Source: a virus
Length of the DNA: 64,000 nucleotides
Direction: 5' to 3' (one strand)
IMG/VR virus record: IMGVR_UViG_3300008113_004357
Span: 1 to 64,000 of that record
How positions within the stretch are numbered: position 1 is the stretch's first letter; the number at the start of each line of letters is the position of its first letter. A program made the translations under genes and the position numbers. The notes under the pieces are model-generated. The model saw only the letters and a list, made by a program, of their open reading frames with translations, was not told where the DNA came from and searched no databases. This document shows positions 12,932-38,397 of this stretch, in pieces.

Positions 12932-12948
12932 TTTGGTTGTAGCACCAT

Positions 12949-12977
12949 TTGACAGGGTCTTCGGACCCTGTTATAAT
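12949..12977 (+). promoter_or_regulatory. Consensus sigma70 promoter with a UUCG hairpin as spacer
   Basis: TTGACA (12949-12954), 17 bases, TATAAT (12972-12977): perfect consensus. The spacer and -35 edge form a perfect 8-bp inverted repeat, ACAGGGTC (12952-12959), TTCG loop, GACCCTGT (12964-12971). In RNA reading through from upstream this makes a very stable UUCG-capped hairpin, possibly a terminator or mRNA 3' end for the MoxR transcript, while in DNA the same bases are the spacer of the next promoter. No U-run follows, so intrinsic termination is uncertain. Confidence 0.85.
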
Positions 12978-13003
12978 ATATACTATATAAACAGGAGCAA
13001 ATT

Positions 13004-16594: not shown

Positions 16595-17484
16595 TGGAGA
16601 ACATTATCTGATTTCCTTGTTATATTGAAATCAAATGTTTTAAACCACTTACTTTGAATAGCTGTTAACGGTTCATCATCTATAGGGAGCTCATGCTTAA
16701 TGAGATTCCCTATTTTTTTGGCCAGTGCTAGTGGGTCTTCATTTTTAACTTTATCATAAAAGAAAGTATTGAGATAATCAAAGTCTCGAACATTAATAAA
16801 ATCCCAATCAGTAAAATGTGTCATGTAACAACCCTGACGAGCTCCTAGTATACTCCAAATGCCGTTTGATACATCTGCGCCTACCATTGACCAAATTCCT
16901 AATCGTTGGTAGTTACCTGGCCATACATCTTTTAATTGATTAACTCGTTGACCCTGTTCAAGTGACATCTTGACGCCTTCACGAAAGCCAGCTCTCCATG
17001 CTTGTAGTGGACTGCCGTTATTATGTATTTGACTAAAGGCTTTGTCTAAAGGCAAATATTCTAAATCCCAGCAAAAGTCTATTTGGCTTTTTACATTGTC
17101 ATTAGGAGCAGCTTCATGTGTTTGCATGTTAAGGACAACGTGCTTCGGCCAGCATTTAATGCCGCCATTGCCGTACATAAGTCCGTTGATAATATTATAA
17201 CTAGGCCAACTTACTACACAATTATCAAAATTAACATCTTCAGGTACTTCAATTACTTGATTAAGAAACTTTCCTGTAAGTACATTGTCACCGTCAATGG
17301 TGACAAATCTGTTTGTTTCAGATAAGTTTGCGGCAGCTTTATGAGCAGCATCACTGCCTTTAACACCGTGAACACGTTTTGCCCAAGGTATCTTTGAACA
17401 AAGATCTGCATAGTTACGATCAGCATCTGGCTCATCGTAACTGATATAGATTACATCATATTCACTTACTGTTATTTTTTTCAT
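16552..17484 (-). CDS. Glycosyltransferase-like protein of the VHGVKGSDAAH family
   Basis: 310 residues. DVIYISYDEPDADRNYADL at the N-terminus, then AKRVHGVKGSDAAHKAAA and RFVTIDGDNVLTG with a D-x-D-N motif, indicates a GT-A-like nucleotide-sugar binding fold. The second half contains a conserved MYGNGGIKCWPK and QAWRAGFREGVKMSLEQGQ. It is a close paralogue of the gene at 37501 and of the C-terminal domain of the giant repeat protein immediately upstream, with which it overlaps by 23 bases. Probably transfers a sugar; donor and acceptor are unknown. Last gene of the leftward run; its stop overlaps thyX tail to tail. Confidence 0.78.
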   Translation of the reverse strand: MKKITVSEYDVIYISYDEPDADRNYADLCSKIPWAKRVHGVKGSDAAHKAAANLSETNRFVTIDGDNVLTGKFLNQVIEVPEDVNFDNCVVSWPSYNIINGLMYGNGGIKCWPKHVVLNMQTHEAAPNDNVKSQIDFCWDLEYLPLDKAFSQIHNNGSPLQAWRAGFREGVKMSLEQGQRVNQLKDVWPGNYQRLGIWSMVGADVSNGIWSILGARQGCYMTHFTDWDFINVRDFDYLNTFFYDKVKNEDPLALAKKIGNLIKHELPIDDEPLTAIQSKWFKTFDFNITRKSDNVLHYNDLDSGNTSAIT

Positions 17485-20400
17485 TTAAGAATTGCTCGTA
17501 TAACCAATCAAAGTCGTTGATCTTAAATAAGTTGTCAGGATTTTCTGTGGCAAACTTACGTCCGGCGAGTGCGCCTTTTATGGCAAATTCACCGTAGGGT
17601 TTATCTGCTCCTTGTGTACACCACACATTTAGACGTTCTTCTGTTTCACTATCTACTTGACGATCAATAGTTTTACCTGCTAGTTTAGCACATTCACGGA
17701 ACGCTGACTTCCATGTTGAAAATTCATCAGTGTTAAAGGAAGTAACGTTACTGACAACTTGTACTGGTTTAAATTTATCGCTGATGCTAGTTGTCATATC
17801 AGGACGAGTTACATCCATACTCAATGTAAGTTGACGAGGTAACAGTTTAACACCACCATAACCGTAGACTAGATTATTAACAGGGTTTTGACTGCGCCAT
17901 ACATGAACTGTATCTCTTTCCCATACAGGTATTTCATAATCAAACTTGAAGTCATCAACTACAACTGCGTCACCATCAACTACCCAGAAGTTATCTGTAT
18001 CTGCCTGTTCGGCTGCTTTGATGTGAGCTTGATGAATGCCTTTAACTCCGTGTACACGTTTGACCCTTGGATACAGCGTTTTAACTCTGTCAAAGTTTTC
18101 ATCAGCATTACTTTCGTTATAACTAATAAACACAATGTCATATGGTTTAACTTTACTAGCTGTAATATTCCATTCTTTACGCTCAACTAGATAACGGAAA
18201 GTAATTTCCTTTTCACTTACAGGGGCATGTTTACTCATCAGGTTAATACCATTATAGTTTTCTTCGCCTCTAAATAAGTGTTTAAAACTGTGATTCATAT
18301 TTCTATCATAGGTATTATGATGACTGAAATAAGTGTCAAATGTAAATGTATCTAATACTTGAACTTCTTTTGGTACTACCCAGAACATGTCTGTAGTAGA
18401 CTCTTCAAGAGCAACTAGATAATCTCTATAAGTGCTTACTGTAAACTTATCAAATTGTTTTGGATTACTTGCTATTGTTTCAATTTCTTTTTTCTCTATA
18501 AAGAATCTTGTTTTAAATTCTCTTTCAGAGATTTGTTCTTCTTTTGAAAATAAACAAATGCCGTCCCAATGTTCACCATTCTTAAAAATATGTGTAACAT
18601 GTTGATTGTAACGAGGAACATAATAATCAAAGTTAAAATCTTCAACAACTTCTACATCTGGCCAGACGCACCAGAACATGTTAGACTCAGATAGTTTACA
18701 AGCTTGTTCGTAGTCCTTGTATGTTGAAATATTAAATTTATCAAACATTTTAGGCGTGCTAGCAACTTCGTCCCATTCCTTACGATCTGAAATGTGTCTA
18801 AATTTAAATTCTTTTTCAGAAATTAATTTTTTCTTGCTGGCAAGAATGACACCGTCATATGTGTCTCCGTTGAGGAACATATGATTTTCTTCTCTTTCGT
18901 AGCTGTTGTGGTAGCTGAAGTAAACATCAAACTTAAATTCATCAGATACAATTACGTCACTAGGAACTATCCAGAATAGATCAGTATCTGATTTTTCAAC
19001 TGCATCCATGTATTCATTGTAGCTGTCAATGTAAAATATATCGTATTTCTTTGGATAACTTGCGACTAATTCAACTATTATTTCTTTATCAGCAAAGAAT
19101 CTATATCTAAATTCTTTTTCAGAAACAAGTACTTCGGTTGAAAATAAACAAATACCGTCATAATGTTTGCTATTCTTAAACACATGAGTTAAGTGTTGAT
19201 TATAACGAGGCACATAGTAATCAAAGTCAAAATCTTCAACAACTTCTACATCATGCCATACACACCAGAACATCTTTGATGTTGAATTTTTTACAGCATT
19301 AAGATAATCGTCATAGGTTTTTATATTAAAGAATCTACTAAATTCTTTTGGTCTACTTGCAAGAACTTCCCACTCTTTTCTGTCGCTTAAAAATCTATAT
19401 TTGAATTCTTTTTCGCTTATGGATTTAAACTTACTGGCAAGTATAATTCCGTCATATGTATCTCCGTTGAGGAACATATGATTTTCTTCTCGTTCGTAGC
19501 TGTTGTGATAACTGAAATAAAGATCAAACTTAAATTCTTCAGCAGTAATAACATCGCTAGGAACTATCCAGAATAGATCAGTATTTGAGTTCTCAACTGC
19601 ATCAATGTATTCATTGTAGCTGTCAATGTAAAATATATCGTATTTCTTTGGATAACTTGCTAGGTAGTCAATTTCTTTCTTTTCTGTAAAGAATCTGTAC
19701 TTGAATTCTTTTTCGCTTACCTGTGAAGTTTTGCTGAATAAACAAATACCATCAAAATGATCTCCGTTCTTAAAAACGTGTGTAATGTGTTGATTGTATC
19801 GAGGTACATAGTAATCAAAGTCAAAATCTTCTACAACGTCTACATCATGCCATATGCACCAAAACATATTGCTTTTAGATTCTTTGCAAGCATTAAGATA
19901 CTGTTCATACGTTTTAATATAAAATTTATCAAACTCTTGTGGTATACTTACAAGTGTATCCCATTCTTTTCTTTCATTTAAGAATCTATATCTAAATTCT
20001 TTTTCACTTATAGGTCTAAACTTACTGGCAAGAATAACACCGTCATATGTATCTCCGTTAAGGAACATATGATTTTCTTGTCGACTATAGGTGTCATGGT
20101 GGCTAAAATAAAGATCAAACTTGTAGTCATTAACTACTGTAACGTCACTAGGTATTAACCAGAGCAAGTCTGTAATAGAAGATTGAACAGCATTTAAATA
20201 TTCATCGTATGTGTTAACATAAAATATATCATAATTTTTAGGATAGCTGATAGTATAGTCAACTTCTTTTTTGTCAGTAAAGAATCTGTACTTAAATTCT
20301 TTTTCACTTACTTTAGTGTGCTTACTAAACAGACAAACACCGTCATAGTACTCGCCGTTTTTAAAAATATGAGTAATATGTTGATTATAACGAGGAACAT

Positions 20401-22072
20401 AATATTCAAAGTCAAAATCTTCTACAACATCAATGTCGGGCCATATTGCCCAGAACATATCAGTTGTTGACTGTTCACAGGCTGTGAGATATTCTTCAAA
20501 AGAACTTATATTAAAAATTTCAAACTTAACCGGCGTACTTACTAATAACTCTTCTTCTTTTTTCTCAATGACAAATTTATTATCAAATTCCTTTTTAGAA
20601 ATTTCTAAAGATTTTGGAGTTAATAATACTCCGTCATAGAAATCACCGTTAAGAAAAGCATGATGTACAGATCTATCAAAGACATTGTCATGAGTATAAT
20701 AAACATCAAATTTAAAATCATCTTTGAGATTAATACCGGAAGGTATAATATAAAACAGTTCTGTTCTTGATTTTGATTTAGCTTCTAAATATTGCTCGTA
20801 AGAATCAACATAAAATTTATCGTACTGGCAGGGAACACTGGCTAAAAGATCCCATTCTTTACGCTCGACAATATATCTATGTTCTATTTCTTTGGCGCTA
20901 ACTGGCTTGTACTTACTTAATAAGAAGATACCGTTATATAATTTGTCATTATTAACTAGGTGTACAAATGCGTGATTTTCTTGTCGTTCGTAGGCATTAT
21001 GATATGTAATGTATAGATCAAATTTAAAATCATCGACTACTTTTAAGTTAGGACTAGTCATCCAAAACAAATCTGTAGTCGACTGCTTTACTGCTTCTAA
21101 ATATTGATCATACGTTTCTATTTCAAAAATATCGTATGATTTTGGAACGCTGGCAACATAATCAACTTCTTTTTTGTCAGTGAAGAATCTATATTTAAAT
21201 TCTTTTTCAGTTACTTTGTTGTGTTTACTAAACAGACAAAGTCCATCATAATATTCTCCATTTTTAAATACATGGGTAACATTCTGATTATAACGAGGTG
21301 CATAGTAATCAAAAGTAAAATCTTCTAAAAGTTCTATGTCATACCATATTGCCCAGAACATATTTGTTGTTGAATTTTCGCAGGCAGCAAGATAATCGTC
21401 GTAGGTTTTTATATTAAACTTTTCAAACTCTTTAGGACGACTTGCAAGAATTTCCCATTCTTTTTTGTCGCTTAAGAATCTATATCTAAATTCTTTTTCA
21501 CTTATAGGTTTAAATTTTGATGCTAAAATGATTCCGTCATATGTATCTCCGTTAAGGAACATATGATTTTCTTGTCTCTCATAACTATTATGATGACTAA
21601 AATACAGATCAAATTTAAATTCTTCAACGACTGTAACATCGCTAGGAACTATCCAAAACAAATCAGTGGTTGCATTTTCCAGTGCGTTGATATATTCTTC
21701 ATAGGTATCTATGTAAAAAATATCGTACTGTTTAGGAATACTTGCTACTAAATCAATTTCTTTTTTATCAGTAAAGAATCTATATTTGATTTCTTTATCG
21801 CTAATATACTTGTGGCGGGGGACCAAAGACAATCCGTCAAAGTATTCGTTATTTTTAAAAATATGCACATAGTCTTCGTCCCATTTAGGGATTGAATAAG
21901 AAGAAAAATCAAAATCGTCTTTTAGTTCTATGTCGTCCCACACTGTCCAGAACATAGAAGTAAGAGCTTTTGATTTAGCTTCGTCGAAGTTTTTGGCTTT
22001 TTTAGCAAACGGATATTTTGATTTAATGACTTTCCAATTTGGATTATTTCCAATAACAAAAATATCGTACAT
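17462..22072 (-). CDS. 1,536-residue protein of 13 glycosyltransferase-derived repeats plus a full C-terminal domain
   Basis: The protein is almost entirely repeats. Residues 1-1310 hold 13 modules of 97-115 residues; 1311-1536 form a complete domain homologous to the genes at 16552 and 37501 (YDIVFISYNESNADENF, RVKRVHGVKG, FWVVDGDAVVVDDFKFD). Modules alternate between two types. Type I reads FW-x-x-W-x-D ... YYVPRYNQHITHVFKNG ... DGICLFSK; type II reads LFWIVPSDV ... YFSHHNSYER ... NHMFLNGDTYDG ... ILASK. Each aligns to residues around the DGD of the C-terminal domain, with DGD changed to PSD or WxD, so the modules probably keep the fold but not catalysis. No signal peptide or membrane segment. 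Possible roles: a multivalent glycan-binding array, a scaffold or a processive polymerase. I know of no described protein of this design. Confidence 0.85.
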   Translation of the reverse strand: MYDIFVIGNNPNWKVIKSKYPFAKKAKNFDEAKSKALTSMFWTVWDDIELKDDFDFSSYSIPKWDEDYVHIFKNNEYFDGLSLVPRHKYISDKEIKYRFFTDKKEIDLVASIPKQYDIFYIDTYEEYINALENATTDLFWIVPSDVTVVEEFKFDLYFSHHNSYERQENHMFLNGDTYDGIILASKFKPISEKEFRYRFLSDKKEWEILASRPKEFEKFNIKTYDDYLAACENSTTNMFWAIWYDIELLEDFTFDYYAPRYNQNVTHVFKNGEYYDGLCLFSKHNKVTEKEFKYRFFTDKKEVDYVASVPKSYDIFEIETYDQYLEAVKQSTTDLFWMTSPNLKVVDDFKFDLYITYHNAYERQENHAFVHLVNNDKLYNGIFLLSKYKPVSAKEIEHRYIVERKEWDLLASVPCQYDKFYVDSYEQYLEAKSKSRTELFYIIPSGINLKDDFKFDVYYTHDNVFDRSVHHAFLNGDFYDGVLLTPKSLEISKKEFDNKFVIEKKEEELLVSTPVKFEIFNISSFEEYLTACEQSTTDMFWAIWPDIDVVEDFDFEYYVPRYNQHITHIFKNGEYYDGVCLFSKHTKVSEKEFKYRFFTDKKEVDYTISYPKNYDIFYVNTYDEYLNAVQSSITDLLWLIPSDVTVVNDYKFDLYFSHHDTYSRQENHMFLNGDTYDGVILASKFRPISEKEFRYRFLNERKEWDTLVSIPQEFDKFYIKTYEQYLNACKESKSNMFWCIWHDVDVVEDFDFDYYVPRYNQHITHVFKNGDHFDGICLFSKTSQVSEKEFKYRFFTEKKEIDYLASYPKKYDIFYIDSYNEYIDAVENSNTDLFWIVPSDVITAEEFKFDLYFSYHNSYEREENHMFLNGDTYDGIILASKFKSISEKEFKYRFLSDRKEWEVLASRPKEFSRFFNIKTYDDYLNAVKNSTSKMFWCVWHDVEVVEDFDFDYYVPRYNQHLTHVFKNSKHYDGICLFSTEVLVSEKEFRYRFFADKEIIVELVASYPKKYDIFYIDSYNEYMDAVEKSDTDLFWIVPSDVIVSDEFKFDVYFSYHNSYEREENHMFLNGDTYDGVILASKKKLISEKEFKFRHISDRKEWDEVASTPKMFDKFNISTYKDYEQACKLSESNMFWCVWPDVEVVEDFNFDYYVPRYNQHVTHIFKNGEHWDGICLFSKEEQISEREFKTRFFIEKKEIETIASNPKQFDKFTVSTYRDYLVALEESTTDMFWVVPKEVQVLDTFTFDTYFSHHNTYDRNMNHSFKHLFRGEENYNGINLMSKHAPVSEKEITFRYLVERKEWNITASKVKPYDIVFISYNESNADENFDRVKTLYPRVKRVHGVKGIHQAHIKAAEQADTDNFWVVDGDAVVVDDFKFDYEIPVWERDTVHVWRSQNPVNNLVYGYGGVKLLPRQLTLSMDVTRPDMTTSISDKFKPVQVVSNVTSFNTDEFSTWKSAFRECAKLAGKTIDRQVDSETEERLNVWCTQGADKPYGEFAIKGALAGRKFATENPDNLFKINDFDWLYEQFLNEKNNSK
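18143..22072 (-). repeat. Tandem array of 13 coding modules, about 597-nt super-period
   Basis: Module residue limits are 1-115 (I), 116-215 (II), 216-312 (I), 313-416 (II), 417-516 (II), 517-613 (I), 614-713 (II), 714-810 (I), 811-910 (II), 911-1009 (I), 1010-1109 (II), 1110-1206 (I), 1207-1310 (II). A type I-type II pair spans about 197-199 residues. At DNA level a 56-base block at 19008-19063 recurs exactly at 19605-19660 and a 28-base block at 18960 recurs at 19557, both 597 bases apart, showing recent duplication or conversion of whole pairs. Confidence 0.9.
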
Positions 22073-22078
22073 ATCATT

Positions 22079-22810
22079 CTACCATGTAATAAACTTATAT
22101 AGCTCTTTTGCGTAGAGCTCGTGAGGTTTTTCTCCGTGATGCCAATATTTTGCTAAAGAATTCTGATGACCTTCTCGCTGGTACTTGAGATAAAAAGAGT
22201 TATTTGAATTATCAAAATCCATATATCGAGAACCGTCTATTAACTTTAAGTAAAAATCAGTCCATCGATCTCGTTTGACAAAGTGCATGGTATTACACAT
22301 GACATACTGAATACCCATTGACTTAAAATAAGACTGTAGTTGATGTACAAGATTTAAACTTTGAATTTCTAAATATGACTGATTTGATGCCATGAACTTT
22401 TGATAAAATGGTATTAATCTTTTTTCCCAATCTGAATTTCCATTAAAGCCAGGATTTAATCTATAGAATACATTATTAGTATTTCCAAACCAAGAATTAG
22501 TTTCAGATATAATATATTTTGTTCCTAATTCTGACGGTATCTCCATACGCACACTTTCGGTCCATGCTACGCAGACAAATAGGTCCATACTTTCAGGATC
22601 ATATTCTCTATGCATCCATTCTAATATTGATCTAGCTATAGTAGGGTTAGCCGATCCTGGAGAAGAAATATTAATAGGTCTATACCCTAGCATCTCAGCT
22701 AATATGTTTCCAAATGATTTGCTTCTATTAAAATCAGAATCTAATTGCCCATCTATCTCTGATCCCGATGCGTGGCTGCATCCAGAGATTAACATTACTT
22801 TCTCTTTCAT
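22079..22810 (-). CDS. SGNH/GDSL-like hydrolase
   Basis: 243 residues. LISGCSHASGSE near the N-terminus (Ser12 in G-C-S-H) is the nucleophile block. NISSPGSANPTIARSILEW gives the Gly/Asn blocks, and KYWHHGEKPHELYAKEL near the C-terminus supplies the catalytic His. SGNH enzymes include O-acetylesterases and acyltransferases that act on polysaccharides, so it could trim or acylate the glycan made by neighbouring glycosyltransferases. There is no signal peptide, so action would be cytoplasmic unless released at lysis. Overlaps the upstream gene by four bases. Confidence 0.75.
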   Translation of the reverse strand: MKEKVMLISGCSHASGSEIDGQLDSDFNRSKSFGNILAEMLGYRPINISSPGSANPTIARSILEWMHREYDPESMDLFVCVAWTESVRMEIPSELGTKYIISETNSWFGNTNNVFYRLNPGFNGNSDWEKRLIPFYQKFMASNQSYLEIQSLNLVHQLQSYFKSMGIQYVMCNTMHFVKRDRWTDFYLKLIDGSRYMDFDNSNNSFYLKYQREGHQNSLAKYWHHGEKPHELYAKELYKFITW

Positions 22811-24063
22811 TTTACTAACCTTTGAACAGTTTTAAAAGTTGTTTTAGACAATAAACATTGATAATTATGATCTAATATTGATTGCATTTGATCGTACATG
22901 TCACGCAGTTCGTTAATAGATTTAGAATTTATATAATTTATAAGATTTAAAATTTTAATAGTTCGTACTTCATGATTAGATTCTTCATCATAACTTTCAT
23001 CCCAGAAATCGCTAAATGTTTTAAATCCCATCCTTTTAGCATATTCTAAAGTGTACGGTGGTGCTACTAATATAAATGGTTTTTTATATCTTATAGCTTG
23101 ATATAATTTTTCACTGTAATTTCCACAATGTTGCGCGAAACGTGTTTCATTAATTACATCACAAAAACTATCATTATAAAAATCTCCCAGTGGATTTAAT
23201 TTAAAATTATTAATAGCAGGGGTTTCATAATTATCATAGCTTTCTGTTATAGGATAATAAGATGGATTTTCATTGTTTATATCAACAGCATTAGTTGCTT
23301 TAATATCTAAACAAACAGGAGAATGATAATTTAAAATTTCAAATCCAGACATTAGTTGTTCGTATAATTCTTTATTTGTTTTTTTCCAATTGTGTATTGG
23401 AAAAAATAAATCATGTGCAAATGCTTGACCATTGCAATTAAAATACCAACTGTAGTTAGAAGAAACTGTTGATAAAAATGCTGTAATTAGATGACGGTGT
23501 TTTGTATATCTCCAATTTACACAAATAAACTTTTTAGTAAATTTGTTGTTAGGAAAACTTTCAAATAACGAGTAATTTTTTAAAAACAAATCATTTGTTA
23601 CTAGTTTCATTATTTTAGTGTAATGTGGATGATAGTAGGCTACCTTATAATCGCAAGTATTCACTATTACTCTTTTTAATCCATTACGTATAACATACTC
23701 TTTAATGCTGTCTAATTCGTCAGCTCTTATTTCGTTTAGATTTGTTTCAAAAGGAAACTCGCTGTAGAATCCTCTATTATGATGATAATTCTCCCTACGA
23801 GAACAAATAGGCTCATATAAGAAAAAATATAAACCCAATCTATTCATAGTTTCCACATCACTGGCACTATGATTAATATTTTTTAATCCTGTCAATTCCC
23901 CGTTACCCATATAGACAAAAACAGGAATATGAGGAGCTAGGCCGGAAGAATTTCTAACTTGGGTCATGAATACATTTGCATCTGTTTCAGGGCGATTTTT
24001 CATGCCAGGAATACTAAACCAATGTAACTGAGTCAATTCGTGATCTGGCGGATTAGAGCTCAT
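22807..24063 (-). CDS. Glycosyltransferase-like protein, SEK/KPF paralogue family (copy 1)
   Basis: 418 residues. The C-terminal part has NYSEKLYQAIRYKKPFILVA, GFKTFSDFWDESYDEESNHE and LDHNYQCLLSKTTF. The middle has FICVNWRYTKHRHLITAFLS. The same layout (x-N-x-R-x-x-H-R-x-x-L then S-E-K-x-F/L ... P-F-I-L ... G-x-K-T-F) occurs in the genes at 28401 and 31542. The E-x-x-x-x-x-S-E-K ... P region resembles the donor-binding end of GT-B/exostosin-like transferases. Sugar and acceptor unknown. Overlaps the oxygenase gene by 11 bases. Confidence 0.68.
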   Translation of the reverse strand: MSSNPPDHELTQLHWFSIPGMKNRPETDANVFMTQVRNSSGLAPHIPVFVYMGNGELTGLKNINHSASDVETMNRLGLYFFLYEPICSRRENYHHNRGFYSEFPFETNLNEIRADELDSIKEYVIRNGLKRVIVNTCDYKVAYYHPHYTKIMKLVTNDLFLKNYSLFESFPNNKFTKKFICVNWRYTKHRHLITAFLSTVSSNYSWYFNCNGQAFAHDLFFPIHNWKKTNKELYEQLMSGFEILNYHSPVCLDIKATNAVDINNENPSYYPITESYDNYETPAINNFKLNPLGDFYNDSFCDVINETRFAQHCGNYSEKLYQAIRYKKPFILVAPPYTLEYAKRMGFKTFSDFWDESYDEESNHEVRTIKILNLINYINSKSINELRDMYDQMQSILDHNYQCLLSKTTFKTVQRLVK

Positions 24064-25530: not shown

Positions 25531-26110
25531 TAAACACTCTCATTTTACTAATGTCAGGATAATCTTTATCACTCCAACATTTTGGTTTTAAATCTTTTAT
25601 TTGTTCAAATCGTTGTATCCCTAACTCTGCAGATTCAGGTGTCATATAATAATGATATCCTAACAGATCAACATCTTGTTCTTTCCACAGTACGTCGGGC
25701 AATCTACCATCATAGCTCATTTTTTTTAAAATATTAGCAGCTTCTTGGTTGTCAGTTAAAATCATTCCGCCGCGGCCCAAATTAAGATGCTTTCTAAATT
25801 GAAAACTCAAACACATAAATGTGCCAGGAATATAACTATCTTTTTTCCATAAGACTGCTGCATCAATGATATTTGTATTACCAATAAAATAATAGTCTTG
25901 CCATTGCGATTCAACAAACTCCCACGACAGTCCTAGTTTTTCAAATGTCATTGGTATAGATAGATATGTGTGTGCAGGGCAAGTTACTGACTTGGGAGTT
26001 GTGTAACGCAAGCAAAGTTCTACGGCATGAGTACAACTGTCTGTTGCAACTGCATACTCAGAACCAAAATAGTTTGCGATAATATTTTCAAAGTCAGTTA
26101 CTGGAGACAT
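25520..26110 (-). CDS. Miniature DegT/DnrJ/EryC1/StrS aminotransferase
   Basis: 196 residues. FENIIANYFGSEYAVATDSC and THAVELCLR match the PLP-fold entry of the DegT family, CPAHTYLSI the substrate loop, DAAVLW the PLP-pyridine Asp, and CLSFQFRKHLNLGRGGM (100-116) the internal PLP Lys107. Typical members have 360-400 residues; this one stops after YYMTPESAELGIQRFEQ and lacks most of the C-terminal domain, though that final helix is the normal family segment. It may be a minimal enzyme or need a partner. Would transfer an amino group to a keto sugar or cyclitol. Overlaps both neighbours by 11-17 bases. Confidence 0.8.
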   Translation of the reverse strand: MSPVTDFENIIANYFGSEYAVATDSCTHAVELCLRYTTPKSVTCPAHTYLSIPMTFEKLGLSWEFVESQWQDYYFIGNTNIIDAAVLWKKDSYIPGTFMCLSFQFRKHLNLGRGGMILTDNQEAANILKKMSYDGRLPDVLWKEQDVDLLGYHYYMTPESAELGIQRFEQIKDLKPKCWSDKDYPDISKMRVFNVK

Positions 26111-28349
26111 TTTCTTTTGTTTTCTTAATACTAGAAATTGGAATTACTACATTAGAATGCATTGCTTGTTTTTCAGGTATGGCATCCATGTTTGAAGCAT
26201 TTGAAACTTCTACTTCGTATTCTTTAAAATTACCCCAGTGGCCTTGTCCTCTATATCTGTATTGAAAGGTGAAATTTATAGTATTGTTTAATATTCTTTC
26301 TTCTTCTAAAAGATCATTAAAGTCATCACCACTTCTTCCGGCTTCAACATCCCATGTTGGTTTAGCTAACTTTCTTGCTCGCTTTGCAGTATTACTCATC
26401 ATTCGACTATAGTCTTGAGCATAGAAAGGACCTTTACGTCCCCTAGGAGGTGGCTCTCTTTCGTCATAGGGATTATCAATTTGATCAAATTTATATTTAA
26501 AGTCAGCAGCCCACTCACCGTCATCTGAAATTTTAAATTTAAATACTGCATTGTACATGCCTGGACCATACTGCGTTCCAAATTCTTTCAAATCAATTTC
26601 AGGATTAAATAAAATCTCAGCTTCATAGCCACCGCGAGTTTTCCATAGCATACGGAAGAATGGCCACATCTCATTTACTAGTGCGTCAGCAAAAGGATTA
26701 ATGCTAGGTTTAATTATATCGTAATCAAATTTTTCATATTCAATTTCTTTTACAAGATAAGGATTGTTTAACTTTATTGAATAGTGCTCTTTAGCTAGAT
26801 TAAATCTCACAGGATAACCAAACGGTACTTCTGTACAGCCTGTCATAAAATCTAGGAACATATGCATTATTTTAACACGAGACATGACATGTGTGCCGCC
26901 CTTGGTAAAATCATTAGTGATCCAATGTCCTTGATATTTTTGCCAGCTGATATTAAACTTGTGGGGGTTTTGTCCAACAATAGTTTCTGGACCAAGTCCA
27001 TATCCTACACCAGCACCTACGTTATTGATGTTCATGTTACGCATACGCCATAGTAACGTCATGCTGTCAGCAAAGTCTTGTAGTGTCTCTGTAGGGAATC
27101 CTACAATCCAATTAGTAGCTGCATAGATACCAACTTCTTTGCCATGCTTAAAGTTGTCTTCCATTTCTTTAATAGTAACACCTTTGGCCATGTCATCTAG
27201 AACATGTTGACTGCCGCTTTCGATTCCGTAGTTTAACATAATACAGCCGCCGGCCTTTAAATCTTTAAAGTACTCAAGGTCCATGCGACCATCACAGCGA
27301 GCATAGCCTGTCCAGTTAATTTTTAGACCTTTGGCTTCAACTGCTTTACAAAAGGCACGTAGTTCTTTTAGGTTACCGTTAACTAGGCTATCAATGAACC
27401 AGATAACATCTACACCTTTGTTATAGTATAACCACTCTATTTCAGAAATTAAATCTACTGATTGACGTTGACGATATTTCCAAAAGTGTGTTTCTTCACA
27501 GAATGTACACTTGGCTGTACAACCTCGACTAATCTCTGTGTTAACTCCGTTAGGCAAATCGTAGAGACTAAAGTCAATGCTTTCGTAATCAGGCATTGGA
27601 AGTCCGTTAATATTGACACGTTCATATTCGTCTTGTGTTAATACAACAGGTTCAGTATGTTCTACTCCGTTTTCTACATCTTCTAATAACTTTAATAGAT
27701 TAATTTCACCCTCACCTACTACAACATAATCATAATAAGGATGTACAGTAAACCAACTTTTGTGTGCGTTAGGTCCGCCAACTGCAATTTTAATATGCGG
27801 AGCACGGCGTTTTAATTCTTGGGCCATCCATTTAGTAGGTTCTTCACTGATGTAGTACATACTAAAACCGACAACCTGCGGATTCATTTCTATTATTTCT
27901 TCTATTGCCTGTTCAAGAATAGGTTGTAGAATAGGATGTATATCTTTCATATACGTTTCCCCTAACCAGTGCCAACTGGCTGCAGGGTCCCACAATCTAA
28001 AAGGAAGTTTATTATTAGGGATCCAATCTTCTTGATGAGCGCGATATGCTTTAACATTAAGATCCATAATATGAGTTTCATATCCTGCACTTTTAGCAAC
28101 ACCGCTTAATCTAGCAAGACTAAACGGAGGCATATAAGGACTCCATTCTGGACATAGTACTAAAACTAATTTGGTATTTCTAGTCTTGTAGTCTACGTAA
28201 ACAGGAGTAAGATTTTTTTGTACAGTTGCTTTAGCATAGGGAGCAATGGCCTTCATCATAGACATATGACGTGCATCAGCTAAATCTTCGGGCGGCTTTT
28301 CGGGCAGGACTACTTCTTTTTTAGCAAGTCCTTGTAGATTAAAATCCAA
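26094..28349 (-). CDS. B12-binding radical SAM enzyme
   Basis: 751 residues. A cobalamin-binding Rossmann-like domain spans about 60-225 (LVLVLCPEWSPYMPPFSLAR, VVGFSMYYISEEPTKW, IAVGGPNAHKSW, YVVVGEGE). The radical SAM domain follows with C277-x3-C281-x2-C284 (SRGCTAKCTFCEE) and GIESGSQHVL. A C-terminal region of about 230 residues (AVFKFKISDDGEWAADFKYK, NFTFQYRYRGQGHWGNF) is not recognised. Such enzymes methylate unactivated carbons or rearrange skeletons. The start codon is TTG with AGGAG seven bases upstream. First gene after a 51-base gap; overlaps the aminotransferase by 17 bases. Confidence 0.88.
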   Translation of the reverse strand: MDFNLQGLAKKEVVLPEKPPEDLADARHMSMMKAIAPYAKATVQKNLTPVYVDYKTRNTKLVLVLCPEWSPYMPPFSLARLSGVAKSAGYETHIMDLNVKAYRAHQEDWIPNNKLPFRLWDPAASWHWLGETYMKDIHPILQPILEQAIEEIIEMNPQVVGFSMYYISEEPTKWMAQELKRRAPHIKIAVGGPNAHKSWFTVHPYYDYVVVGEGEINLLKLLEDVENGVEHTEPVVLTQDEYERVNINGLPMPDYESIDFSLYDLPNGVNTEISRGCTAKCTFCEETHFWKYRQRQSVDLISEIEWLYYNKGVDVIWFIDSLVNGNLKELRAFCKAVEAKGLKINWTGYARCDGRMDLEYFKDLKAGGCIMLNYGIESGSQHVLDDMAKGVTIKEMEDNFKHGKEVGIYAATNWIVGFPTETLQDFADSMTLLWRMRNMNINNVGAGVGYGLGPETIVGQNPHKFNISWQKYQGHWITNDFTKGGTHVMSRVKIMHMFLDFMTGCTEVPFGYPVRFNLAKEHYSIKLNNPYLVKEIEYEKFDYDIIKPSINPFADALVNEMWPFFRMLWKTRGGYEAEILFNPEIDLKEFGTQYGPGMYNAVFKFKISDDGEWAADFKYKFDQIDNPYDEREPPPRGRKGPFYAQDYSRMMSNTAKRARKLAKPTWDVEAGRSGDDFNDLLEEERILNNTINFTFQYRYRGQGHWGNFKEYEVEVSNASNMDAIPEKQAMHSNVVIPISSIKKTKENVSSN

Positions 28350-28400: not shown

Positions 28401-29531
28401 CTAAACATTTACTGTGTCTAAACGATAACACGTTTTTTCCATCAATACTTGATAATTATGATCAAGAATTTCTTTGACAGCTTTCTGCCATTCAATCCAT
28501 TGGCTATCGCTGAATTCGCACAACCTTAAAACTTCTTTCCAAATCATGTCCAGTCGTGCATGATCGTCAATTTCATTATCGTAACTTTCGTCTATTAAGG
28601 GATCAAATGTTTTGTATCCTAATTTTTTTAAATGCTGCAATGAAAAGGGTCTTGACGCTAAAATGAAAGGGTGTTTTAATGCAATTGGCCTAAATGTTTT
28701 TTCTGTTAAAAATATAGAATCCCTAGCATCTATATACGGAAAAAAGTCATTGTGCTCTTTGAAAAACAGAGTTTCAGTAACCAAACTAAAATAACTGTCA
28801 TTGTGATAGTGTATATCGTCAAGTCGTACATCAATTGGATTGTATCTATCATCAGGGACATTAAGGCGAAGCGGGAATATGTCTTGGTATCTCGTAAATA
28901 ATTTACGCATTCTTTTATATTTCTGCGAATTACCTATACGATTTATCACATCTATACCATATTCAAAAGACGAATAAGTTTTTTCTAAAAGATTACTGTC
29001 AAGTATTTTGTAAAAAAGAAGTACTCTGTGTTCCCTTAACTGTTTGTTAAGACAACAAAATAATTTAGATTTTTTTTGAATTAAGTATTCAATTGTTGGA
29101 TGATTAGTTTCACGATAGAAAACAGAAAGATTTTCTTTCATTACATTTTCAAAAACACTACTGCAACAAATCTCAAGTAATGGTTCTATATTTTGTTCTA
29201 AACAATAGTTTTGATATACTTCTTTTCCATTTTGTGCTGAGGTCAGATATATGTAAGAAACGCTGTAATCATTTATTTGTCTAATAATTCTATGAATTTT
29301 TCTTATATGATCAAAGTAAACTGCTTCATTAACATTGTCAAATAAAATTCTTTTATATCCAGCACTGATTGCCGATTTGATAGAATCTATTATTGGATCT
29401 GTTTCTATTTTAGGAAAGGGATAATTGAAATATGTTCCAGCATAAACATAGAAAGTCTTGCTGTCTATCTCGCCAATAACTTCTGTTAAAAATTTAATGC
29501 TTAAATCAATTTTACTTTGTTCTAAAATTAA
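28401..29531 (-). CDS. Glycosyltransferase-like protein, SEK/KPF family (copy 2), no standard start codon
   Basis: The frame is open from the A10 run that ends the upstream dehydrogenase. The first ATG in frame is at 29141, giving 246 residues, yet the 130 codons before it match the paralogue at 31542: DNVNEAVYFDHI against NNSHEAFHSVVDGI, and CLNKQLREHRVLL against NLNRRWRFHRPAL. From 29531 it is 376 residues, like the 379-residue paralogue. The C-terminus has FLTEKTFRPIALKHPFILAS and GYKTFDPLIDESYDNEID. No ATG, GTG or TTG precedes 29141, so it is made by -1 frameshift fusion, by ATT initiation (29528 or later), or the sequence has an indel. Sugar specificity unknown. Confidence 0.65.
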   Translation of the reverse strand, partial: LILEQSKIDLSIKFLTEVIGEIDSKTFYVYAGTYFNYPFPKIETDPIIDSIKSAISAGYKRILFDNVNEAVYFDHIRKIHRIIRQINDYSVSYIYLTSAQNGKEVYQNYCLEQNIEPLLEICCSSVFENVMKENLSVFYRETNHPTIEYLIQKKSKLFCCLNKQLREHRVLLFYKILDSNLLEKTYSSFEYGIDVINRIGNSQKYKRMRKLFTRYQDIFPLRLNVPDDRYNPIDVRLDDIHYHNDSYFSLVTETLFFKEHNDFFPYIDARDSIFLTEKTFRPIALKHPFILASRPFSLQHLKKLGYKTFDPLIDESYDNEIDDHARLDMIWKEVLRLCEFSDSQWIEWQKAVKEILDHNYQVLMEKTCYRLDTVNV

Positions 29532-30721
29532 TTTTTTTTTTGGCGAGAATTGCCGTAGTGTATTAATTCAAAATTGGCACCATCTACAGTTTGCAATTTG
29601 CGCCACGGGTCTATTACAATAGATCCATTAGGGAATTCTACATATTTTACCCATTCTTCCCAGTAACCAATGAGATATACTTCAGTCCACTCAGATTTTA
29701 AATCTAAATCGCCTGTGTTTTTATCATAATAATTTACATTGCCACCTAGCTGTTCAATGTAATGGCCTACTAATAAACTGGGGCTTCCGATAGTATAATG
29801 TACACCCGGTTTGTATGCTTTACCTACTATGGTAACATTTTTACCTTGAGAGATACATTTTTTAGCAATGCGTTCAGATTGTACTTCTCTAGCTGTCATA
29901 ATAGCATCGAATAAATCATACCCCAGGTCAAGCTTGTCAGCTAGATATCTTAATGCTATGTTATCTCTTGGATGGCATGCGCCGCCATCACCGAGTCCTG
30001 CTGTCATATATGCAGGCCCCATAATACGATAAGAACTTTTTGCCAATGCATTAGTGACAACATCAACATTGATATTTCCATTTGTTTCTGCAACATCTTG
30101 TATCATATTAACCAGTGCTAGTTTTGTACTGATAAAAGTATTGTAAAAGATTTTAATGCTTTCTGCTTCGTCCCAAGTCCCAACTTCATACCGTGGGTTA
30201 TTTTTCATAAGAGGGTTATAAAAATCAATTAACTCTTGTGCATCACCAGTTAAACTGCCGTCTTCTGTACCTATGATAACCATTTCAGGATTAATCATAT
30301 CATACTTAACTGTACCCATGGCAATAAGATACGGATTATAGATAAAACGAGCATTAGTTATTAAGGGCTCTAATTGAGATCTTACAGTACCTGGTAAAAC
30401 TGTACTGATTAAAACAACTAGTTGTTTTTTGTTAACATGTCTATTAACTTCTTGTAAAATATTCTTAACAATAGTGTAATCAAAATCTTTATTTGGTAAA
30501 TGACTTGTCGGTGTTTCGCCGCCGTACATAGGGTCATGTGGTGTAGGTGCCGCAATAAAAATAAAATTGCTGTCTTCTACTGCATCTTTTATTGAAGACA
30601 TCATAGGAAAAGCAGGCGATCTAGGCTCAACGTCATAGCCTACTACTTGGTAGTGTTCTGCCATTACTTCGGCGCAATCTTGCCCAAGTTTTCCAACACC
30701 AATCATAGCAACTTTAGTCAT
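29528..30721 (-). CDS. UDP-glucose/GDP-mannose 6-dehydrogenase, full length
   Basis: 397 residues with all three family domains. MIGVGKLGQDCAEVM (6-20) is the NAD-binding motif, VLISTVLPGTV and EAESIKIFYNTFISTK form the centre, and GLGDGGACHPRDN (242-254) carries the catalytic Cys249. VTIVGKAYKPGVHYTIGSPS, after about residue 295, is the C-terminal nucleotide-binding domain. Oxidises an NDP-hexose to NDP-uronate, giving an acidic sugar for the local glycosyltransferases. Start preceded by AGGAAT. The gene ends in RQKKN encoded by an A10 run; see the frameshift site. Confidence 0.88.
   Translation of the reverse strand: MTKVAMIGVGKLGQDCAEVMAEHYQVVGYDVEPRSPAFPMMSSIKDAVEDSNFIFIAAPTPHDPMYGGETPTSHLPNKDFDYTIVKNILQEVNRHVNKKQLVVLISTVLPGTVRSQLEPLITNARFIYNPYLIAMGTVKYDMINPEMVIIGTEDGSLTGDAQELIDFYNPLMKNNPRYEVGTWDEAESIKIFYNTFISTKLALVNMIQDVAETNGNINVDVVTNALAKSSYRIMGPAYMTAGLGDGGACHPRDNIALRYLADKLDLGYDLFDAIMTAREVQSERIAKKCISQGKNVTIVGKAYKPGVHYTIGSPSLLVGHYIEQLGGNVNYYDKNTGDLDLKSEWTEVYLIGYWEEWVKYVEFPNGSIVIDPWRKLQTVDGANFELIHYGNSRQKKN
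29532..29541 (-). other. A10 run: candidate -1 ribosomal frameshift site
   Basis: Ten consecutive A (minus strand) sit five bases before the end of the dehydrogenase gene. In its frame they read C-AA AAA AAA AA-T TAA, containing the canonical slippery heptamer A AAA AAA. A -1 slip leads into KLILEQSKIDLS, the downstream glycosyltransferase-like frame, which has no normal start codon. A homopolymer-length sequencing error would give the same picture. Confidence 0.5.
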
Positions 30722-30750: not shown

Positions 30751-31548
30751 TTAAAACCAATCTATTTTTATTTCTTTATTCATCACAACTGGAGGGTTAT
30801 TAGCGTCTAAATTAAACGTGTGATGAATATCATCAACAGTTGGACAAGCTTTTAAAAGTTTAGTAGATTGTATAGCGTACTTGTAGGTTTCTTGTGATAT
30901 GTCAAAACCCACTTTTTTTAAATATGCATAATATCTTGCCGGAGACGGATGGTAATCTTGAAATTTAATTCCCTGTTGCGGGTGATCATAAACGTGCCCA
31001 TGGTCCCAATGTCCTCTCATTTCTGTTTGAAATAAGTTAGGCAAACATATGCTAGTTACAGGTTTATATACATTCAATATTTTACCAATATCTTGTGTTT
31101 CTTCATTTTGATAATTCCAAGGAACACTAGTAAGAAAAATATAATCACATGGCAAACTATCAAGTAATCCTTTGGTCAAACTTACAACATTTAAATCTCT
31201 TAAAATATAGCCTTTTGTATCGCAGAATTTTTTAACAAAATTTTCAGGATAATATGCTTGAGTGAATATGTTTCCTGGTGTCTGCCAATGATCGTTTACG
31301 TATCTATCTTCTCTACAAAAAGTTGTCCACATTACCACAACTAGATCATCCTCTGTATAATTTAATTTAGTGTTACCTTCAGCTACTTTATACGAAATAA
31401 AAGGGTTGCCAGCTCCAGATTTTCCTAGGTTAATAAACTCTGTGTCTGGCATAGTATGTGCAAGAATATCTGCCCAGGTTGGCCAAATATATTTTGTAAA
31501 ACTACATCCAACTGTAATTAATCTTTTATATTTTTTTAAATTTAACAT
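30751..31548 (-). CDS. SGNH-type hydrolase/esterase-like protein
   Basis: 265 residues. RLITVGCSFTKYIWPTWADI puts Ser16 in the G-x-S nucleophile block; NLGKSGAGNPFI gives the Gly/Asn blocks; VVVMWTTFCREDR follows; and QDYHPSPARYYAYLK near residue 215 gives the D-x-x-H-P catalytic end. A second member of this superfamily lies at 22079. Likely an esterase or acyltransferase on a sugar or polysaccharide. No signal peptide is visible. Overlaps the upstream gene by seven bases. Confidence 0.75.
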   Translation of the reverse strand: MLNLKKYKRLITVGCSFTKYIWPTWADILAHTMPDTEFINLGKSGAGNPFISYKVAEGNTKLNYTEDDLVVVMWTTFCREDRYVNDHWQTPGNIFTQAYYPENFVKKFCDTKGYILRDLNVVSLTKGLLDSLPCDYIFLTSVPWNYQNEETQDIGKILNVYKPVTSICLPNLFQTEMRGHWDHGHVYDHPQQGIKFQDYHPSPARYYAYLKKVGFDISQETYKYAIQSTKLLKACPTVDDIHHTFNLDANNPPVVMNKEIKIDWF

Positions 31549-32681
31549 AATTTTGTTGTAAAGGTCGATTTTGAAAGCAAAGTATCAAAATTATATTTGC
31601 ATATAGATTTAGAAAAATCTAAAAACTCTGCTAGCTCAGTTGTATTTAAGTTAGATAAACGCTCAATTTCATCTACTATGGCTATCATACGTTTTACATC
31701 GTCTTCAATAAGATCGTATGCTTCATTAATATACGGATGAAAAGTTTTATAACCTATAGACCTAATTGCTTCTAGACTGTTAGGTCTACTTACAATTATA
31801 AAAGGATGGAAATTTGCAATTGGTTTAAAAAGTTTTTCGCTTAAAAATCTTCCCTTTTCTAGAAAATCATAATAATTTGTTTCGCTTACTACACTAAAAT
31901 AAGTTTCTTCATAAAATTTAGTAGTACTTTGCAATAAGGTAACATGGTTAATCTCCATGTCTGTCCTATCTACAAATAACTCTGGCAATGATAAAATTTT
32001 ATCTTTATTATTTTTTAAAAACTCTAATTCTGTATAATGATTTCTATGGATATCTAAAATGTCGTTCCAAACTTTATCCCAAGTTTTGTTATCGTCCGAT
32101 TTTGCTAAACTTACATATCCATAATCTAGCAAATTTCTAGCAGCCAAAAATGCTACTAACGCAGGTCGATGAAATCTCCATCTTCTGTTTAAATTTAAAA
32201 ACTTTTTAGAATAATTTTTTATATTAAGAGTATCCGGTAAAACATAACCCATACTAGTTACATCGCACTTTGTTGATAGTTCAAAAACTCTTGACCATTC
32301 GGATGTAATAGGTTTACAATTATATTTTTTAGATACTATACCAATTTCAACAGCTATATCCGCAGACTCGCTTAATAGTAATATTTGTTCTTCGGGAATT
32401 TTAAATTTAATAACAACAAATTTATAAATTCCATCAACTACAGAATGAAACGCTTCATGGCTGTTATTTAAAATTAACTTGATTCGTTTACGTCGAATTG
32501 AAATCAAAATATTAGACGGAACAACTTTGTTTAAATGCTCAAGTCCTTCACCTGTCATAAAGTCGACACAAAAATACTGTGCATCATTAAACTTTCTCAT
32601 TCGAGGAAGAACAGTTTCGTCCCGCATAGAGATTTCACTATTTCCGTCAATATAAGGAACTACGTTGTTTACTATAGACAT
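31542..32681 (-). CDS. Glycosyltransferase-like protein, SEK/KPF family (copy 3)
   Basis: 379 residues. FLNLNRRWRFHRPALVAFLA and RFLSEKLFKPIANFHPFIIV with SIGYKTFHPYINEAYD are the family landmarks shared with the genes at 22807 and 28401. ATG start directly after the stop of the SPASM-type radical SAM gene. The conserved Ser-Glu-Lys and Asn-Arg-His-Arg positions suggest a phosphate or nucleotide-sugar pocket, which is inference. This copy has an intact start and serves as the length reference for the copy at 28401. Confidence 0.7.
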   Translation of the reverse strand: MSIVNNVVPYIDGNSEISMRDETVLPRMRKFNDAQYFCVDFMTGEGLEHLNKVVPSNILISIRRKRIKLILNNSHEAFHSVVDGIYKFVVIKFKIPEEQILLLSESADIAVEIGIVSKKYNCKPITSEWSRVFELSTKCDVTSMGYVLPDTLNIKNYSKKFLNLNRRWRFHRPALVAFLAARNLLDYGYVSLAKSDDNKTWDKVWNDILDIHRNHYTELEFLKNNKDKILSLPELFVDRTDMEINHVTLLQSTTKFYEETYFSVVSETNYYDFLEKGRFLSEKLFKPIANFHPFIIVSRPNSLEAIRSIGYKTFHPYINEAYDLIEDDVKRMIAIVDEIERLSNLNTTELAEFLDFSKSICKYNFDTLLSKSTFTTKLC

Positions 32682-36132: not shown

Positions 36133-37504
36133 TGGCTATTTCGCAAAGTTTGTAAAAGCTTTCCATTTCTGGAAATGCTTGTAAAAAGTTAGTATCTCGT
36201 CTTTTATCCATGGCGCTAAACCAATTGAAAAAATCTTTTCGACCTTCAACTAATTTTTCCATAGTATAATTTGTTGACTCCATATAATCGACTACACGTT
36301 TAAATTTTTCATATTCAACGCTGGTAAACTTATCGCTGGCATTATCGTCAACATTCTCTTCCATAAATTTAAGATGCTCGTGCATATAGGGCATAAACTC
36401 TTGTTTTGGTAGTATGTTCATATCATATTGAATAGGATCTCTGAGATAGGGTGTGTCAAATCTTACGCGATGTTCTTTACGATCCTCGTACCATCCATAT
36501 TGTTTACGCCATTCAAGAATTTTTTCTAATAAAGATTTAAATGTTGTTACACTTAAAATATTAAATGTAATCATAAAAGTTATCGGACTAGTAGTATTTG
36601 TAAGATATGTGTGAAAATTTTGTTCCCATAACGAAAGATCTAAACCTGTACGAATGTACTCAGCACGAGGACCCCATGTGTCCATACTAGTAAACAATTT
36701 AAAATTTTTAATTTTATCGTTAACTTTTAAATTTTCAACTTCGGTAGATAATCGATCTACTAAACTGCTCTTGACACCAAGATTACTGTTAACATTAAGT
36801 TCAAGCCAGGGCATTGGTTCTTTGTTAATTTTATCTAATAATCTCCACGTGCTTACGTGCATCAATGGCTCTCCGCCAGTAACACGCATAATATTCAATG
36901 TCTTACGTAACTGAGGCCACCAACGCCAAAACGCATCTACATATGGATTATCTTCTTCTCGACTATACAGCTTCATCCAGTCAATGTCGCAACGATGATT
37001 TTTAACTGTGGTCACTGGACCGTGTTCTTTAATCTCATTAAAGAATCTTGAACTGTATTTGGGATGGCAGTATCCGCATTTGAAATTACATTCATTGCCA
37101 AAATTGATTTCAATATACTCAGGATTAATGTTTTGGTCCCAAGAGCCTTTGGCTGTTTGCTCGTAGCGTTCTTCCGTAAAAATACTGGCATTGCGAATAT
37201 GTCTATCGCTAATATAATCGGGACCCATTGCTTCGATGTTCCAGCAGTATTGACAACCTTCGGGCTTTTTGCCTTCTAGCATCATTTTACGTTCTTGCTT
37301 CTTATGTTCAGTGTTGTGCAACGCACTGGGATTGTCAAATACTTCAATTAAAGGAATCTTATGAGGAGCAGGATGATAACAACTATGTGTTTCTCCTGTT
37401 TGTAGATACATGGTCACGTGATGCCATTTGGCTAGACAAAATGTAGAGCTTACTTCATTCTCTACTTTAATCTTGATTGTTTTGATCTTTTCTTGTTCAT
37501 TCAT
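36116..37504 (-). CDS. N-twitch radical SAM enzyme (copy 3)
   Basis: 462 residues, the longest copy. FCLAKWHHVTMYLQTGETHS with C42 and C84-x2-C87 is the twitch part; C139-x3-C143-x2-C146 (GNECNFKCGYCHPK) is the radical SAM site; RVTGGEPLMHVSTWRLL is the SAM motif. LFTSMDTWGPRAEYIRTG matches the TSxDxxGxRxEYxRxG region of the family. More divergent than copies 1 and 2. Overlaps the GT-like gene upstream by four bases. Confidence 0.87.
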   Translation of the reverse strand: MNEQEKIKTIKIKVENEVSSTFCLAKWHHVTMYLQTGETHSCYHPAPHKIPLIEVFDNPSALHNTEHKKQERKMMLEGKKPEGCQYCWNIEAMGPDYISDRHIRNASIFTEERYEQTAKGSWDQNINPEYIEINFGNECNFKCGYCHPKYSSRFFNEIKEHGPVTTVKNHRCDIDWMKLYSREEDNPYVDAFWRWWPQLRKTLNIMRVTGGEPLMHVSTWRLLDKINKEPMPWLELNVNSNLGVKSSLVDRLSTEVENLKVNDKIKNFKLFTSMDTWGPRAEYIRTGLDLSLWEQNFHTYLTNTTSPITFMITFNILSVTTFKSLLEKILEWRKQYGWYEDRKEHRVRFDTPYLRDPIQYDMNILPKQEFMPYMHEHLKFMEENVDDNASDKFTSVEYEKFKRVVDYMESTNYTMEKLVEGRKDFFNWFSAMDKRRDTNFLQAFPEMESFYKLCEIANEQYR

Positions 37505-38397
37505 TTGAAATAGTTTCTCAGTGTATCGTGCATTTTTTTATAGTAAATAGATCCATCAGCATCAAGGTCAGCAATTTCAATTCCGTGTGCTTGCTTGATT
37601 TCGTTACCGTAAAATTTAATTTTTTCTTCTGCATGATCAATAGTTTTATCTGACCATTGTTCTTTCCAATACTCAGTTAAGTACTCAAAATCTCTTACGT
37701 TAGCGTACTCCCAATTTGTACAATTTGTAAGATAGCAGCCTTCTCTGGCGCCTAGCAGACTGTACAAACCATTATCAACATCACGCCCAACAGAGCACCA
37801 TGTAATTAATCTATAATAGTTTTCCCACCAAATTTGTTTTTTCATATCCGTAACTTTGGCACCTTGGTCTAGGCTCATCTTTACACCTTCACGAAAGCCC
37901 GCTCGCCATGCTTGAAATGGCGTAGCATTAGTAAAGGTAGTGCTATAATTGCCCCCAAACTGATGATACCTATGATCAAAACAAAACTCTACTAAACCTT
38001 TATGATCTGCAGGGTCTGAATTTTCATGGGTTTTCATTTCGTTGACAAATTTACGTGTCCACATTTTAAGGCCACCATTGCCATACATAAGATGATTGAC
38101 ATGTACACGACCAGCCCAGCTAAAAACATAGCTATCATCAAAACCTAGTTCGTCTAAATCAACAACTACTTGAAAAAATTTACTGTCAACAATATTGTCA
38201 GCATCAACAGTGACAAAATATTCTGTTTCACTTTTTGCAGCACAAGCTTTATGTGCGGCGTCGCTGCCTTTGACTCCGTGTACACGTTTAGCCCATGGCA
38301 CTTTCTTTAATAGGTCAGCATAATTTTTTTCAGCATTAGGTTCATCATAACTTAAAAATACAATGTCCTGATCAATGACTTTAATTTTATTACTCAT
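37501..38397 (-). CDS. Glycosyltransferase-like protein of the VHGVKGSDAAH family
   Basis: 298 residues. DIVFLSYDEPNAEKNYADLL, AKRVHGVKGSDAAHKACA and YFVTVDADNIVDSKF (D-x-D-N) give a GT-A-like core; LMYGNGGLKMWTRKF and QAWRAGFREGVKMSLDQG are shared with the gene at 16552. It is colinear over its whole length with that gene and with the last domain of the repeat protein, so these three share one ancestor. Likely a sugar transferase; the cofactor site is inferred from the DxD only. Confidence 0.78.
   Translation of the reverse strand: MSNKIKVIDQDIVFLSYDEPNAEKNYADLLKKVPWAKRVHGVKGSDAAHKACAAKSETEYFVTVDADNIVDSKFFQVVVDLDELGFDDSYVFSWAGRVHVNHLMYGNGGLKMWTRKFVNEMKTHENSDPADHKGLVEFCFDHRYHQFGGNYSTTFTNATPFQAWRAGFREGVKMSLDQGAKVTDMKKQIWWENYYRLITWCSVGRDVDNGLYSLLGAREGCYLTNCTNWEYANVRDFEYLTEYWKEQWSDKTIDHAEEKIKFYGNEIKQAHGIEIADLDADGSIYYKKMHDTLRNYFK

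Follow-up and report, generated by a model that had tools for sequence, protein, structure and literature searches.

Programmed slippage is known mostly from IS elements, dnaX, secretion genes and phage tail chaperones. The tail chaperones of the gpG/gpGT type are a tailed-phage gene pair in which a -1 shift makes a minority fusion, a structural chaperone, in a fixed ratio. The tail assembly chaperone frameshift of this type is named in PMC3711429. Poly-A transcriptional slippage is described for tssM1 of Citrobacter rodentium and tssM3 of Yersinia pseudotuberculosis (PMC4256274). The slippery run of dnaX is A9 in Thermus and A10 in green sulfur bacteria, and dnaX orthologues use slippage of the polymerase or of the ribosome (PMC1088944, PMC3711429). 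The bacterial slippage range is given as A9 and longer (PMC1088944, PMC4256274). Bacterial coding sequence is described as rarely containing AAA_AAA_AAA or runs of nine A or T (PMC1088944, PMC5009743). In SAR11 myophages a UDP-glucose 6-dehydrogenase and glycosyltransferases were assigned to host O-chain modification (PMC7029224). No frameshift joining a dehydrogenase to a glycosyltransferase in phages was found in the titles and abstract openings of the papers listed by the literature searches.

Locus and A10 run

The window is a stretch of 64,000 bases from a record of 67,284 bases that belongs to an uncultured bacterial virus. It has a GC content of 35.5% and encodes tail-fibre, exonuclease and other phage families. 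Positions 29528 to 30721 (minus strand) encode a 397-aa enzyme of the UDP-glucose/GDP-mannose dehydrogenase type (DH), and the ORF ends in ...CGC CAA AAA AAA AAT TAA. This ending had been reported in a preliminary description of the sequence, and the run in the final DH codons is exactly ten A long (29532 to 29541, minus strand; T10 on the plus strand). It is the sole A/T run of at least nine within the window. The heptamer A_AAA_AAA, of the X_XXY_YYZ form, is in phase in the DH frame, which is inherent to any run of at least nine. The unshifted product has the C-terminus YGNSRQKKN, and its end just after YGNSR matches that of free-standing relatives.

A -1 shift on the run reads AAA TTA ATT TTA GAA CAA... 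and continues for 376 codons to a stop at 28401. This frame (28401 to 29531, minus strand) encodes a predicted GT-B type glycosyltransferase domain (GT), as judged from the frames, selection and an AlphaFold2 model. The 376-codon frame and the lack of ATG, GTG or TTG in its opening 130 codons were both as first described. The earliest such codon is the ATG at 29141, which is codon 131.

The next gene after the GT encodes a B12-binding and radical SAM protein with a TTG start (26094 to 28349, minus strand). The same gene also lies downstream of the GT in relatives L124, L125 and L133. A separate GT paralogue of 379 aa with its own ATG is located at 31542 to 32681 (minus strand). The preliminary description had aligned it with the shifted frame from the first third onward. 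The similarity held (tblastn 32% over 230 columns, E ~1e-21) but begins at residue 151, nearer two fifths than one third. An ORF at 22807 to 24063 (minus strand) is similar to the C-terminal part of the GT (tblastn 31%, 129 columns, E 1e-14).

A second UDP-glucose dehydrogenase-like ORF of 271 aa is present at 4651 to 5466 (plus strand), with N-terminal and central domains and no C-terminal domain match. An AAA (MoxR-like) ATPase adjoining a DUF2201 metallopeptidase/VWA protein is encoded at 11840 to 14173 (plus strand). The 1536-aa protein encoded at 17462 to 22072 (minus strand) has, by eye, many degenerate tandem repeats of ~115 aa and an end resembling the ORF at 37501 to 38397. One ORF of 4423 aa spans 50700 to 63971 (minus strand).

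Conservation of the run and of the shifted frame

Viral contigs were scanned with the 376-aa frame. Three contigs had 78% identity over all 376 residues, and these share C-A10-TTAATTTTAGA and the relation of the two frames with the window. The A10 run is identical in L085, L086, L087 and L134. A fourth contig of the L087 lineage (L091/L134) keeps the run, and its GT and DH are broken further on. Internal DH breaks were seen in both L086 and L091/L134 and a GT break in L091; these are assembly faults or decay.

The window and L087 are separated by a dS of ~0.8-1.0 (GT identity 78%). For the 130 start-less codons dS was 0.80 and dN 0.16, a ratio of 0.20, and for the DH dS was 0.79 and dN/dS 0.06. 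The other two frames of the 130-codon stretch contain 13 and 15 stops in 129 codons. By these substitution rates the 130 codons are under purifying selection. The first 14 codons past the run are fast evolving (dN > dS, window against L087), as expected of a linker.

Run length was constant among contigs of a lineage in three lineages with 8 contigs (4/4, 2/2 and 2/2). Homopolymers are error-prone and some contigs (L086, L091) have internal breaks, and the run could on that account be put down to a sequencing or assembly error or to a decaying gene. The same run is, however, present in several contigs and in a diverged relative, with both frames kept and the GT under strong purifying selection (dN/dS ~0.2), which indicates neither error nor decay. 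Error and pseudogene were rejected on the conserved run, the selection on the GT and the constant run length, and are very improbable. A homopolymer beside sugar genes, and relatives differing by single A's (A10 in frame in L098, A9 out of frame in L090), would also suit phase variation, in which run length changes in the phage DNA and toggles the fusion between genomes. This is quite unlikely given the constancy within the three lineages and the unchanged run between the window and L087 at a dS of ~0.8.

Identity of the two enzymes

The DH was above cut-off for PF00984 and PF03721 (N-terminal NAD-binding and central domains). It scored 17.4 bits against the C-terminal UDP-binding domain PF03720 (cut-off 30) and 156.5 bits against NCBIfam TIGR03026 (cut-off 189.8). 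It matched phrog_9148 (E 2e-100) and UDP-glucose dehydrogenases in the PDB (E 1e-19). The partner from which the frame shifts out is clear by sequence as a UDP-glucose/GDP-mannose dehydrogenase type.

The GT had no sequence family above cut-off in Pfam, PHROGs or NCBIfam and no PDB sequence match. The best NCBIfam row (E 0.008) was far below cut-off and was disregarded. Neither the window GT nor that of L131 had a match in the phages collection. An AlphaFold2 model based on an alignment of 39 sequences had a pLDDT of 94 and a pTM of 0.92. It is confident from the outset, with a first helix at residues 5-19 and a first strand at 26-30. As the fold begins at the first residues, translation from 29141 would leave out the N-terminal Rossmann domain along with the 130 selected codons, and this start was rejected.

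Structural alignment of residues 1-376 gave T4 beta-glucosyltransferase (Z 11.3, rmsd 5.2, 284 aligned) and an alpha1,3-fucosyltransferase (Z 10.7, rmsd 4.3, 251 aligned). More GT-B matches were trehalose-phosphate synthases and exostosins. The top rows were tied, so the GT-B fold is established and the family is not. Foldseek against the PDB was weak (best E 8.5e-4). According to the model the -1 frame confidently folds as a GT-B glycosyltransferase with two Rossmann-like domains. The enzyme names first proposed thus differ in footing: the dehydrogenase stands by sequence, while the glycosyltransferase rests on its fold and belongs to no sequence family found.

Among the best BFVD fold matches of the GT was a 788-aa phage protein named dehydrogenase (A0A6J5TB28), which by length, name and GT fold match only appears to be a natural DH-GT fusion. 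A model of a natural fusion (L131 with 7 others) had a mean pLDDT of 65 and was given no weight.

Proposed expression of the locus

The A10 run is very probably a programmed slippery tract giving both a free DH and a DH-GT fusion. Most transcripts or ribosomes would read A10 faithfully and yield the 397-aa DH. A fraction would gain one A (RNA polymerase) or shift -1 on A_AAA_AAA (ribosome) and yield a fusion of ~773 aa. Relatives with DH and GT as one in-frame ORF are mostly 760-800 aa. The run, the frames, their conservation, the selection on the shifted frame and the GT-B fold are shown; that slippage occurs, and at what rate, we infer. The preliminary description had suggested a probable slip on A10 joining the DH to the GT, and the run and frames kept in a diverged relative support it. 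It had also proposed comparing relatives for conservation of the run. The outcome was positive, with further lineages carrying A8-A10 at the same place.

Survey of dehydrogenase junctions

The survey comprised 152 loci, which gave 84 distinct DH junctions after near copies were merged. An adjacent GT was present at 39 of the 84: 13 were fused in frame, 18 had a nearby start (GT out of frame, with a start between -75 and +15 relative to the DH stop) and 8 were out of frame without a start. The remaining 45 consisted of 42 without an adjacent GT and 3 truncated junctions; among the latter, L093 and L096 belong to lineages already counted. A run of at least A8 after the conserved YGNTR was found at all 8 no-start junctions (A8-A10), at 3 of the 18 separate and 3 of the 13 fused junctions, and at none of the 42 without a GT. 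Two of the 8, the window and L100, belong to a single lineage. Besides window/L087, six no-start out-of-frame lineages carry A8-A10 there, plus two doubtful ones (L094, L145).

The run carriers among the 18 included L059 (A8, normal ATGA start) and L145 (A9, ATG 14 nt on). L094 (A10, +1 frame) is placed in the nearby-start class solely by a GTG that precedes the run. Four loci (L138, L144, L145, L098) entered the survey via run-pattern scans. When only the loci retrieved by DH similarity were counted, runs were present at 4/4 no-start, 2/14 separate and 2/11 fused junctions (Fisher p 0.005 for the first two).

Cellular genomes gave 10 DH relatives, of which only L223 and L229 had GT profile matches; none of the 8 junctions inspected among these 10 had a run of at least eight. 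In L036/L204, L049/L078, L054 and L055 the DH is extended in frame to 584-651 aa. These are other DH fusions, and their C-terminal extension was unmatched by the GT profile. With L017, whose A8 run is on a virus record of 360,683 bases (~360 kb), the arrangement extends to records of jumbo size.

Selection on the run

The 80 loci found by DH similarity contain 667,370 bases. A/T runs of at least nine numbered 7, with 6 at the DH junction, and those of at least ten numbered three, all at the DH junction. In long frames elsewhere in the same loci AAA AAA AAA made up 1 of 45 Lys triplets and AAA AAA AAG another 1 of 45. AAA accounts for 69% of Lys codons in those loci. At the junction 8 of 9 Lys triplets were uninterrupted A compared to 2 of 45 elsewhere (Fisher 4e-7), although p-values are only guides as homologous copies are not independent. 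Relatives keep runs at the junction yet avoid them elsewhere, and the run therefore looks selected and not like an error. The avoidance is in line with the published rarity of such runs in bacterial genes (PMC1088944, PMC5009743).

Initiation of the GT without a fusion was considered from the codons around the DH stop. The GT frame of L041 is free of ATG, GTG, TTG, CTG, ATT, ATC and ATA for 116 nt beyond the DH stop; the first start-like codon in L005 is an ATA at +38. An ATG or TTG is found 14-53 nt past the DH stop in L028, L145, L144, L034 and L097. These five could start the GT separately, which counts against slippage. For the window the GT might start alone at the AUU in TAATT that overlaps the DH stop. 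In the window as in L087 this ATT is in the GT frame, at -1, and the same spot reads TAATG in the separate junctions L009, L027, L043 and L046. AUU initiation thus stays a minor rival, but an unlikely one: AUU starts are very rare, such a codon is absent there in L005, L041 and L092, and the retention of a run avoided elsewhere is left unexplained.

Phylogeny and frame offsets

Leaving out L059 (A8, own ATG), the run-bearing lineages were 9 out of frame and 3 in frame (L039, L057, L098). Nine of 12 is close to the 2 in 3 expected if frame were irrelevant, which counts against the slippage reading. Loss of one A in L098 or L039 (in frame, A10) places a stop directly after KKK and leaves a DH of normal length.

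In the DH tree L098 (A10, in frame) was sister to L090 (A9, -1) with support 92/75, and L028 (A9, -1) was sister to L094 (=L034; A10, +1) with support 100/99. The 'shift' label changed 5 times in the DH tree, 2 of these forced by well-supported branches, and 3 times in the GT tree, 1 of these forced. The run-bearing lineages are partly related by descent. Label changes on both trees point to more than one origin, and the slip arrangement likely arose more than once.

RNA polymerase or ribosome

Slippage by RNA polymerase is judged somewhat likelier than a ribosomal shift. It is favoured by the runs of 9-10, which fall in the published bacterial slippage range, by the one lineage offset +1 and by the runs in three in-frame fusions. 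The sisters L028 (-1) and L094 (+1), offset in opposite ways, also favour it. The stop after KKK that loss of one A would bring about in L098 and L039 speaks for it too. RNA polymerase can add or drop A's, and slippage could give a free DH and a DH-GT whichever frame is encoded, as for the tssM homologues (PMC4256274). On balance we lean to a reading in which a slippery A-tract in uncultured tailed phages, itself conserved while the frame is not, would yield a free DH and a DH-GT fusion from one gene. The tract would have arisen or shifted frame several times, and would stand between separate and fused genes.

Alternatively, -1 ribosomal frameshifting on A_AAA_AAA (A_AAA_AAG in L028 and L120) could possibly account for the same fusion by itself. 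The heptamer is in phase in all -1 cases, 8 of the 9 out-of-frame lineages are -1 (p 0.04), and the A8 of L017 is short for polymerase slippage. The -1 bias may, however, descend from TAATG/ATGA overlaps, and L034 requires the opposite direction. RNA downstream of the run folds better as a group (mean z -1.69 compared to -0.20 for GT background, p 0.005; compared to fused plus separate junctions, p 0.05), with L028, L138 and L144 strongest. Strong folding was also seen in L092 (z -5.2), L126 and L128. Separate-gene junctions also fold well (mean z -1.21). In the window no stimulator hairpin was found downstream of the run: the 60 nt past it had a z of +0.81, or -1.66 with the run included. An AGGAG-like element within 25 nt upstream was absent in 10/10.

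Function and implications

The named DH relatives are from Synechococcus and Pelagibacter phages. In Bellamy and HTVC008M the DH lies among NAD synthetase and carbamoyltransferase genes. We infer that the DH may make a nucleotide uronate which is used by the tethered GT (channelling).

If the slippery-tract reading is true, slippage would link two sugar enzymes in phages and, being programmed, would fix the proportions in which phage metabolic enzymes are made. Homologues that are in frame, overlapping or slipped stand side by side and form a natural series on how gene fusions arise. The same series lets one ask why both the free and the fused enzyme might be wanted. Gene callers miss such GTs in viral metagenomes or cut them off (here at 29141).

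Comparison with known systems

As described, tssM resembles the DH-GT locus in its poly-A tract before a stop and in the short and long products from one gene. Its homologues slip to the long or the short form, like the out-of-frame and in-frame run lineages. The tssM slippage was shown by mass spectrometry and blots, at an A11. It also differs in being on a bacterial chromosome and in that the added part is a C-terminal domain of the one protein rather than a second enzyme. The dnaX gene is alike in that an A9-A10 run gives two lengths of one enzyme. Unlike DH-GT it is described as a host gene for DNA replication, and in Thermus slippage shortens the product.

The gpG/gpGT type shares with DH-GT a tailed-phage gene pair and a -1 fusion, but DH-GT consists of two metabolic enzymes. 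In Synechococcus phage Bellamy genes 227/228 are a DH directly followed by an annotated glycosyltransferase, as in the window. These are separate genes with an ATGA overlap, and the DH identity is 65%. Gene 228 had no match to the GT profile used, and L002 was classed as without a GT. The in-frame DH-GT fusions of uncultured tailed phages (e.g. L019, L020, L024) differ from the window in being one ORF for which a shift is unneeded, and 10 of the 13 are without a run of at least A8. They have the same domains in the same order, with the junction likewise after YGNTR.
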